A stretch of 64,000 nucleotides of DNA from positions 3,094,348 through 3,158,347 of the forward strand of contig NZ_AP012331.1 in assembly GCF_001042635.1 (NCBI RefSeq). Reading direction: 5' to 3'. This DNA comes from Bifidobacterium scardovii JCM 12489 = DSM 13734 (lineage in GTDB: Bacteria; Actinomycetota; Actinomycetes; Actinomycetales; Bifidobacteriaceae). Positions 4,512-17,915 of the stretch are shown in pieces. Made by a program: the position numbers and the translations under genes. How positions within the stretch are numbered: the first letter of the stretch is position 1; the number at the start of each line of letters is the position of its first letter. The notes beneath the pieces are model-generated. The model was not told the origin of the DNA. It worked only from the letters and a program-made list of their open reading frames with translations, and made no database searches.

Positions 4512-5252
4512 TCAGAGCACGCCGGACGCCAGATCGTTGACCAGCATCCACTGGCGCAGATCGGCGAACTCGTCCATACTCACCGAATGGTCGAGGCCAC
4601 GGTAGCTCTTCGCGGTCAGCCACGTGTGCTCCTCCATCCAGGCGGACGCGGCGTACAGCTCGTATTTGGGAATCACCGTATCGTTCTGGCCGTAGCCGAA
4701 GAATACGGGGATCTGCCCGTCGAGCCGGTCATCGGCGGGGGCGGTCCCAGCTACGTTCCCGGACGCCACGAATCCGGACAGCGACACCGCCGCGCGGTAC
4801 CGTTCGGGATGCACGCGCAGCAGATGCACGGCCAGCAGGCCGCCTTGGGAGAACCCCAGCGGCACCACATCGCGGTCCTCGGGAATATTGTCCATGACCC
4901 AGCGGTCGATGGCGCTTGCCGCGGCAAACGCGTCGCGATCCAGATCATCGCCGGAGGGCACCGCATCATGGAACCACGAGTAGGCTCCCGGCATGAATCC
5001 GCCTTCCTGCAGCACCAACGGCGCACGCAACGCGGCATAGTCGTTGTACGGCGCGATGTAGCGCATCATGCCGCCGAGATCCTCCTCATTGGAGCCCCAG
5101 CCGTGCAGGCACAGGAACATCGGGCGCGTGGGATTGGCCTTGCCGCCGCCCCTCGAATACTCGGCGTGGGTGACGGTCAGTGGCTCGCCGAATCGCCCCG
5201 GTACCACCGTGGACTCGCGGCCGATGAGATCATTCGTTGCGTCTTCGCTCAT
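4512..5252 (-). CDS. Alpha/beta-hydrolase, predicted carboxylesterase/phospholipase
   Basis: A 246-residue cytosolic hydrolase of the dienelactone hydrolase/carboxylesterase type. The catalytic triad can be placed: S135 in GFSQGG (nucleophile elbow), D191 in GQNDTVIP and H222 in GLDHSVSM. LHGWGSNEEDL near residue 50 is the oxyanion-hole strand. The substrate is unknown; short acyl esters or lysophospholipids are typical for the family. ATG at 5252 is preferred; a TTG three codons upstream is possible, and neither has a strong ribosome site. It stands alone between the pit promoter and the small-RNA region. No signal peptide is seen. Confidence 0.8.
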   Translation of the reverse strand: MSEDATNDLIGRESTVVPGRFGEPLTVTHAEYSRGGGKANPTRPMFLCLHGWGSNEEDLGGMMRYIAPYNDYAALRAPLVLQEGGFMPGAYSWFHDAVPSGDDLDRDAFAAASAIDRWVMDNIPEDRDVVPLGFSQGGLLAVHLLRVHPERYRAAVSLSGFVASGNVAGTAPADDRLDGQIPVFFGYGQNDTVIPKYELYAASAWMEEHTWLTAKSYRGLDHSVSMDEFADLRQWMLVNDLASGVL

Positions 5253-5477
5253 ACCGCCCAATATACGTCAGCCACGGCACCGCGCGCATCGGATCGACCA
5301 TGATGTGCGTCACACCATCCCGGGTTTGCGAAACGCATGTCGCACGCCATGGAGCCGGCGGCGGCGCCAACGTCACCGCATGCCGCCCTCGGTCCCGGGT
5401 CTCGCTGCGCGAGCCAGCTCCCGCCGGCGGGAGCATGCCAATCCCGACGCGGCAGAGCCGTGCACAGCGAAGCCGGG

Positions 5478-5583
5478 CAAAAAAGAACCCCGGCGGGGTC
5501 ACCGCCGGGGAGAGAAAGGAGAGAGAAGAAGAAAGGGTTCAATTGTCGGGAACTGCTGCGGTTCCTGTTCAGCTCTTGCTGAC
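5478..5583 (-). ncRNA. Candidate small RNA with 27-nt C/U-only segment
   Basis: This otherwise gene-free interval holds a complete small transcription unit on the minus strand. A TTGCGT-17-CATAAT promoter is followed by two small hairpins: TCAGC/GCTGA with a 4-nt loop (5569-5582) and GGAAC/GTTCC with a 7-nt loop (5549-5565). Next comes an unbroken 27-nt pyrimidine stretch (5511-5537), then a strong GC hairpin and U-run. The predicted length is about 105 nt. The single-stranded CUCUCCUUUCUCU portion is complementary to AGAAAGGAG-type ribosome sites, the usual design of a trans-acting repressor RNA. No matching known family is recognised. The rest of 5253-5868 shows no gene. Confidence 0.5.
5479..5510 (-). 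terminator. Intrinsic terminator of the candidate small RNA
   Basis: Nine-bp GC stem (5488-5496 with 5502-5510, 5-nt loop) followed on the minus strand by UUC and then six U residues (5479-5484). No minus-strand coding gene ends here, so it must serve a non-coding transcript. Confidence 0.8.
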
Positions 5584-5587
5584 AGTT

Positions 5588-5616
5588 ATTATGTAACCAT
5601 CCCATCCTTGACGCAA
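5588..5616 (-). promoter_or_regulatory. Promoter of the candidate small RNA
   Basis: Minus-strand TTGCGT (5611-5616) and CATAAT (5588-5593) are separated by 17 bp. Initiation is predicted at about 5582, right at the base of the first hairpin. Confidence 0.5.
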
Positions 5617-5784
5617 TGCTGGTTTTCTCTGAGAACTTCCTGAGAATTATGGCGCTGTTGTGTGCATCCGCCGGAGGGAGCCGCGATTCCGGCCGGCAGG
5701 GCCGACCGATCCCCGCACCGCCGCGTACGGGGCAGCCCCTACGACCCACCCCCGCCACACGTATACGCCACCCCACCGCGCGTG

Positions 5785-5868: not shown

Positions 5869-6450
5869 ATGCTGCTGTCTGATCGCGACATTCTCGCCGC
5901 CAAACGCGACGGCCATATCTCGCTTGACCCGTGGACCCCGGAAATGGTGCAGCCGGCCTCGATCGATGTGAGGCTCGACCGGTTCTTCCGCCTGTTCAAC
6001 AATCATGCGTACACGTACGTCGATCCGGCCGAGAATCAGGGCGCGCTGACCGAACAGTTCGAAGTGGCCCCGAATGAGCCGTGGATCCTGCATCCCGGCG
6101 AGTTCGCCCTCGGATCGACCTGGGAGTACGTCAAGCTCGACGCGACGGTGGCCGCCCGTCTGGAGGGCAAGAGCTCGCTGGGGCGCCTCGGCATTCTGAC
6201 CCACTCGACCGCCGGCTTCATCGATCCGGGATTCGAGGGGCACATCACGCTGGAGCTGTCGAATGTCTCGACGCTGCCGGTCAAGCTGTGGCCGGGCATG
6301 AAGATCGGGCAGATGTGCTTCTTCCAGCTCAGCTCCCCCGCCGAGCACCCCTACGGGTCCAAGGGGACCGGATCGCATTATCAGGGCCAGCGCGGCCCGA
6401 CCCCGAGCCGTTCATACGTGAACTTCTACCGTGCCGAGGTCAACGACTGA
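5869..6450 (+). CDS. dcd: dCTP deaminase (possibly dUMP-forming)
   Basis: A 193-residue trimeric dUTPase-fold enzyme that deaminates dCTP on the route to dTTP. Visible signatures are MLLSDRDI at the N-terminus, [10 protein letters not shown] near residue 28, and [13 protein letters not shown] near 98, which contains the nucleotide-binding and catalytic residues. [17 protein letters not shown] follows near 115. Length and motifs match the family end to end. Actinobacterial homologues such as the mycobacterial enzyme are bifunctional and release dUMP; that is possible here but not decidable by eye. ATG at 5869 follows AAGGAG. The gene converges on the Ca2+-ATPase gene through a shared hairpin. 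Confidence 0.92.
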
Positions 6451-17758: not shown

Positions 17759-17915
17759 AATGTTTCATCCTTTCAGAGGCAGGTACGTGCCTCACGATCC
17801 GTTGTGGAAGGTTTCGGTGCTTCAGTTCACAGCTCACAACTTCGACGAAGCCATAAACATCGGCGTTTTTATTTTCTTCGGTTCGTTGAAGACTCTCTTC
17901 GCTGAGCCATATTCC

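Follow-up and report, generated by a model that had tools for sequence, protein, structure and literature searches.

A stretch of about 105 nucleotides on the minus strand (~5584-5480), lying between an esterase gene (4512-5261) and dcd (5869-6450), looks like a genuine small RNA (sRNA) gene. We rate it as belonging to a new RNA family of the Bifidobacteriaceae that has a regulator-type box of its own and that would probably work in the manner of the csRNAs of streptococci and LhrC of Listeria. Positions are those of the window, the whole stretch of 64,000 nucleotides of Bifidobacterium scardovii DNA that was analysed. The gene, its family, its structure, the periodic box and the co-occurrence with a regulator were all established computationally. 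Read 5' to 3' on the minus strand, the elements follow in the order repeats, -10, two hairpins, linker, pyrimidine run and terminator:

5607..5646, minus strand: regulator-type box, read directly as TTCTCAG (5646-5640), a 4-bp spacer and TTCTCAG (5635-5629)
5588..5595, minus strand: -10 element TACATAAT, which aligns with the TATATA of the family
5480..5584, minus strand: inferred small RNA of about 105 nt, from the fold and the covariance-model match
5566..5584, minus strand: hairpin 1 (UGUCAGC...GCUGAACA), seen in the fold; helix 1 of the covariation analyses
5549..5565, minus strand: hairpin 2 (GGAAC...GUUCC), seen in the fold; helix 2 of the covariation analyses
5538..5548, minus strand: conserved linker CGACAAUUGAA; the corresponding linker of 47 metG-type members has a mean top-base frequency of 0.95
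5511..5537, minus strand: unpaired pyrimidine arm of 27 nt, mean unpaired probability 0.91
5479..5510, minus strand: intrinsic terminator, with its stem at 5510-5488 and its T run at 5487-5479
5869..6450, plus strand: dcd (dCTP deaminase; Pfam DCD), the divergent neighbour, which marks the sRNA lineage of the window

The 5' end of the RNA was placed from the -10 element and its 3' end from the terminator. An earlier note on this DNA had described a compact minus-strand sRNA gene free of coding sequence, with a pyrimidine-only arm of 27 nt, two hairpins and an intrinsic terminator, and this description stands: the gene is intergenic and conserved in bifidobacteria, and the arm (5537-5511) is the part preceding the terminator stem of a 31-nt pyrimidine run (5537-5507). 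Counting both strands, this is the sole pyrimidine run of at least 18 nt in the 64 kb, and the longest in 100 Markov-simulated windows was 21 nt. The fold of 5587-5480 (-32.4 kcal/mol) consists of two 5' hairpins, the open arm and the terminator, whose 9-bp stem is all G+C and is directly followed by TTCTTTTTT; its energy has a z of -2.08, with 6 of 200 shuffles equally good. The covariance model described below matches positions 5478-5595 with 141.6 bits, the window copy being itself among the 42 copies from which the model was built. A search of Rfam 15 at the gathering score found no family at the window gene, nor at siblings in 12 loci, in agreement with the earlier note, which had recognised none; the best sub-threshold match at the window gene reaches 17.4 bits against a cut-off of 49.5. 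Elsewhere in the window (17761-17819, minus strand), the Rfam msiK RNA (RF01747) is found with 61.4 bits, above its gathering score.

The gene has many relatives, a sibling family that had escaped the earlier note, as had the regulator-type box. BLAST with the window gene gave matches in 76 of 112 Bifidobacterium genomes, and the exact invariant core of the arm occurs in 42 of them (reversed-pattern control, 0). A collection of 84,980 species contains this core in 33 stretches, each of them titled Bifidobacterium. A covariance model based on 42 copies detects members in 111 of the 112 genus genomes, including 105 of 105 of good quality, and in 165 of 189 genomes of the family Bifidobacteriaceae, spread over 8 of its 16 genera. 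When 396 sampled genomes of the order were searched with it, 31 had a match, all inside the family, and none was found in the ~361 genomes outside (a number deduced from listing order); these also serve as a control for the low complexity of the arm. The conservation on which the earlier note had staked its reading is thus borne out, since promoter, hairpins and arm are all conserved in relatives. Positive genomes carry from 1 to 9 members, mostly at least two; in the present one, four matches reach E <= 0.001 and one more has an E of 0.107.

We read 86 members (80 loci, 62 genomes), chosen for spread among the matches listed, and 12 more. All 86 have a pyrimidine run, of 19-37 nt. The lineage of the window, adjoining dcd, accounts for 26 of the 34 loci of one locus set and for 18 of the 80 of another. 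A second lineage adjoins metG (29 of the 80 loci with an explicit match, two more likely), and a third sibling type is marked by a short CACGGCCGC hairpin. In a copy whose genome has a far lower G+C content (L272, 0.446, compared with 0.648 at L219), linker and arm are kept and, by eye, the first stem is altered on both sides. Three loci of genus g5 (L268, L269, L271) have another first hairpin (CUGUCGGUUGAAGUACU...) next to an unchanged linker and arm. Local multiplication is seen in several places: two siblings lie ~3.8 kb apart around dcd (L168, L174, L177), two dcd-linked copies 2.1 kb apart (L232) and two metG-type copies 0.8 kb apart (L160). The bifidobacterial literature surveyed describes neither an RNA beside dcd or metG nor an sRNA whose target is proven; in the available parts of the B. 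animalis and B. breve studies, the sRNA tables hold no RNA beside these two genes, and an entry in a supplement is possible.

Compensatory changes support the hairpins. They were counted in two alignments: A2, of 42 dcd-type rows selected by the exact arm pattern, and A3, of 47 metG-type rows from 46 loci, found with an A2-trained model that favours the arm (43 of the 52 members assigned to the type by a regular expression, plus 4 added, 9 near-duplicates or divergent sequences being left out by eye). Among the metG-type rows, both partners have changed in 14 of 21 pairs, with 55 such cells versus 14.0 in shuffles; slid structures give 6-11. Further pair types give a less distinct signal (28 versus 24.5, with 17 of 500 shuffles as high). 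In the less diverged dcd-type rows, both-side changes occur in 4 of 18 pairs (a count reached by 13 of 500 shuffles) and in 21 cells versus 7.8, further pair types being no better than in shuffles; at one pair of the terminator stem, 17 of 40 distinct rows have both bases altered. Because the dcd-type rows were chosen through the exact arm pattern, the conservation of their arm is by construction. In A3, whose rows were found with an arm-containing model, conservation is highest in linker and arm: the mean top-base frequency is 0.95 in the linker, 0.946 in the arm, about 0.8 in the stems, 0.84 in the terminator and 0.5 in the loop.

These data bear on the idea that the locus encodes no trans-acting RNA at all, and is instead a leader or attenuator of the genes downstream or a short peptide gene, which we consider very improbable. 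The sRNA is indeed followed on the same strand by the esterase, a PHO4 transporter and a PhoU_div protein, as a leader of esterase or phosphate-transport genes would be, but a strong terminator intervenes, the esterase is absent or kilobases off in several loci, and what the siblings have in common is the RNA, not the neighbours. As for a peptide, an ATG stands near the likely transcript start in 30 of the 47 metG-type members and opens a frame of 4-39 codons (14-16 in 20 of them), so that a leaderless mini-peptide may, from the sequence, exist in such members; however, the ATG is absent from 17 of the 47 and from the window copy, and the stems change on both sides. This short metG-type frame (ATG at A3 columns 5-7) often ends in EPHN or similar.

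The promoter proposed in the earlier note was upheld in its -10, of TACATAAT type at 5595-5588, but a sigma-70 scan of the gene found no promoter and there is no consensus -35. The place of the -35 is occupied by activator-type repeats: TTCNCAG motifs with 11-bp spacing run up to the -10, the two TTCTCAG copies of the window being followed at the same step by weaker positions at 5620 (AGC) and 5609 (AAG). When 86 members were anchored on their -10, CAG was found at -47 in 67 and at -36 in 50, ATC or ATT at -25 in 55, and AAG or CAG at -14 in 77; the autocorrelation of their upstream regions peaks at lag 11. As a sequence pattern, half-sites every 11 bp at a fixed distance from the -10 are the layout of an OmpR-family response-regulator box placed for activation. 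Under a box matrix trained without this genome, the window box scores 38.1 bits, whereas the runner-up reaches 6.1 within the window and 16.1 within 864 kb of this genome; with the own genome left out in each case, 76 of the 86 members score above 6.1, the best chance site of the window, although the training set consists of related sequences and kinship raises such scores. The pattern TTCNCAG-N4-TTCNCAG with one mismatch occurs in 10 places versus 3 in the control, and 3 of the 10 are sRNA promoters. A looser box pattern, with up to three mismatches, gives 221 places versus 277 in the control, its sole exact match being the window gene. At least four of the members read (L217, L264, L266, L270) lack such repeats. 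In three of these, from three genomes (L264, L266, L270), a TGTGAGC/GCTCACA inverted repeat stands upstream in place of the CAG repeats, as if the control of that sibling had been swapped.

Which regulator could recognise the box? This genome (G000) encodes eight PF00486 regulators. One of them (C1:1198636-1199379), with a HAMP/HisKA kinase gene following it, has M. tuberculosis PhoP as its closest solved relative (282 bits; next, 160). At a cut of E < 1e-100, which is our own choice, an ortholog of this PhoP-like regulator is present in all 165 sRNA-positive genomes of the family and, among the 24 sRNA-negative ones (four of them assigned by elimination, one of these also appearing in the order-wide sample), is absent in 18 and present in 6. 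This co-occurrence, for which the PhoP-like and MtrA-like regulators only were profiled, is confounded by kinship and genome reduction. The PhoP-like protein is thus the best candidate for driving the sRNAs, not a proven one. In M. tuberculosis, PhoP recognises TCACAGC repeats whose spacer is strictly 4 bp, and its binding is tighter when three or four motifs are present (PMC4832192). The 4-bp spacing is matched here, and the motif TTCTCAG is similar to TCACAGC, though not identical; nor are the recognition helices (DAAIVESYISY here, DVNVVESYVSY in M. tuberculosis PhoP).

Two other possibilities were set aside. MtrA (the query protein being MtrA by its closest solved structure) has a clear ortholog in only 37 of 189 family genomes by a count made by hand at our own cut of E < 1e-80, four more orthologs looking split. 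Control by the phosphate regulon had been suggested by the phosphate-transport neighbours, but upstream of pstS in this genome (L031, ~1245-1290) stand GTTCA repeats rather than CTCAG, which suggests another regulator for the sRNA box. The GTTCA motifs recur every 11 bp and form a phosphate-type box unlike that of the sRNA.

The molecule probably acts through its linker and arm, which are open and conserved, and pairing with purine-rich start regions would be the simplest use of such an arm. The earlier note had gone further, seeing in it a possible broad translational regulator with several AGAAAGGAG sites in the window. Such a number of sites is not borne out: the sole exact match is the antisense of the gene itself (5513-5521), and with at most one mismatch there are 9 matches, this antisense included, where 5.7 are expected and 10 of 100 shuffles give as many. 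A broad anti-Shine-Dalgarno RNA would mimic the tail of 16S rRNA and dampen many mRNAs at once. The window arm does contain CUCCUUUCU, which we take to resemble the 16S 3' end, and across the window's 33 called genes the real arms favour start regions over gene interiors in their pairing. Yet C/U arms shuffled at the same composition are as good or better at these start regions in 76 of 100 and 94 of 100 cases, and also, by mean energy, in 31 of 40 and 39 of 40 for 529 genes in 864 kb of this genome, gene starts being called by a crude script that uses the SD match. Moreover, the CUCCUUU block of the window arm is absent from 45 of 47 metG-type siblings, and AGAAAGGAG is without significant enrichment in the window. 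We therefore regard such broad action as unlikely and keep, of the earlier interpretation, the conserved sRNA gene.

In the target prediction, both arm types have the same gene as their best match (L289, 11738-12484; -29.0 and -33.3 kcal/mol), whose product is presumably LysE-like, but shuffled linker and arm attain these energies in 22 and 6 of 24 trials, respectively. Since shuffled arms pair equally well, no target is supported or claimed. The same equality also speaks for a rival reading, a decoy whose arm would capture an RNA-binding protein, the siblings titrating that protein under stress. The several copies per genome fit this idea, as does a conservation of arm and linker that exceeds the need of simple complementarity to purine tracts; we nevertheless give it a low probability, like that of broad anti-Shine-Dalgarno action. 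Of the 47 metG-type members, 42 carry a CAU eight bases away from the arm, and no dcd-type row among the 42 has one there; in sequence it resembles an anti-start codon, which the type found in the window is without.

Our preferred reading, which we hold to be probable, is that of sibling sRNAs under two-component control, whose arms pair with purine-rich translation starts and block the loading of ribosomes. Transcription, regulator binding, and mRNA pairing with its effect are what we infer here. An OmpR/PhoP-type response regulator, the PhoP-like protein being the best candidate, would bind the tandem 7-bp motifs with their 4-bp spacers and recruit RNA polymerase to a -10 that has no -35. 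The RNA would end at its own terminator and be capped and stabilised by its hairpins; its open linker and pyrimidine arm would pair with purine-rich stretches where translation of a set of mRNAs begins, preventing ribosome loading there, and several siblings would act jointly. A more tentative extension, to which we lean somewhat less than to its negation, is that the PhoP-type system of the Bifidobacteriaceae acts largely via this sRNA arm: its strongest sites would drive pyrimidine-armed siblings rather than protein genes, the siblings would throttle purine-rich leaders, and the metG-type CCCAUAAYUGAACCCUUCUU would be antisense to an entire start region, from SD through spacer to AUG. With members in 105 of 105 good-quality genus genomes, a box of its own and a near-invariant arm, the family would be a conserved layer of control in bifidobacteria, which are major gut commensals, and it offers a direct handle on the role of their widely kept PhoP-like system.

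Three known systems invite comparison. The streptococcal csRNAs, driven by the response regulator of CiaRH, occur as several siblings per genome; their promoters have direct repeats with an 11-bp period adjoining the -10, and the RNAs combine hairpins with an unpaired stretch whose sequence complements start regions (PMC3091779; PMC4507080). The siblings within one genome (four at E <= 0.001 here) and the 11-bp period of the box are common to both families. In contrast, the CiaR box TTTAAG-N5-TTTAAG is absent here, where TTCTCAG-N4-TTCTCAG (TTCNCAG-N4 in the family) takes its place; the arm is made of pyrimidines only, over 19-37 nt; a conserved anti-start CAU is found in the metG type only; and the phylum is another. 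LhrC1-5 of Listeria monocytogenes is likewise multicopy, requires the two-component system LisRK and blocks translation through CU-rich sites (PMC4132741). The bifidobacterial family resembles it in copy number, CU-richness and a two-component system, putative here, but has one long arm where LhrC has three UCCC sites in two loops and a linker. Finally, Mcr7 of Mycobacterium tuberculosis is an sRNA controlled by PhoPR, with predicted pairing to the tatC ribosome-binding site (PMC4038636). Compared by description, Mcr7 is a single RNA that pairs through a 33-nt loop, unlike the sibling family with its open arm; what the two would share is an actinobacterial sRNA placed under a PhoP-type regulator, for which the PhoP-like protein is the candidate in bifidobacteria.
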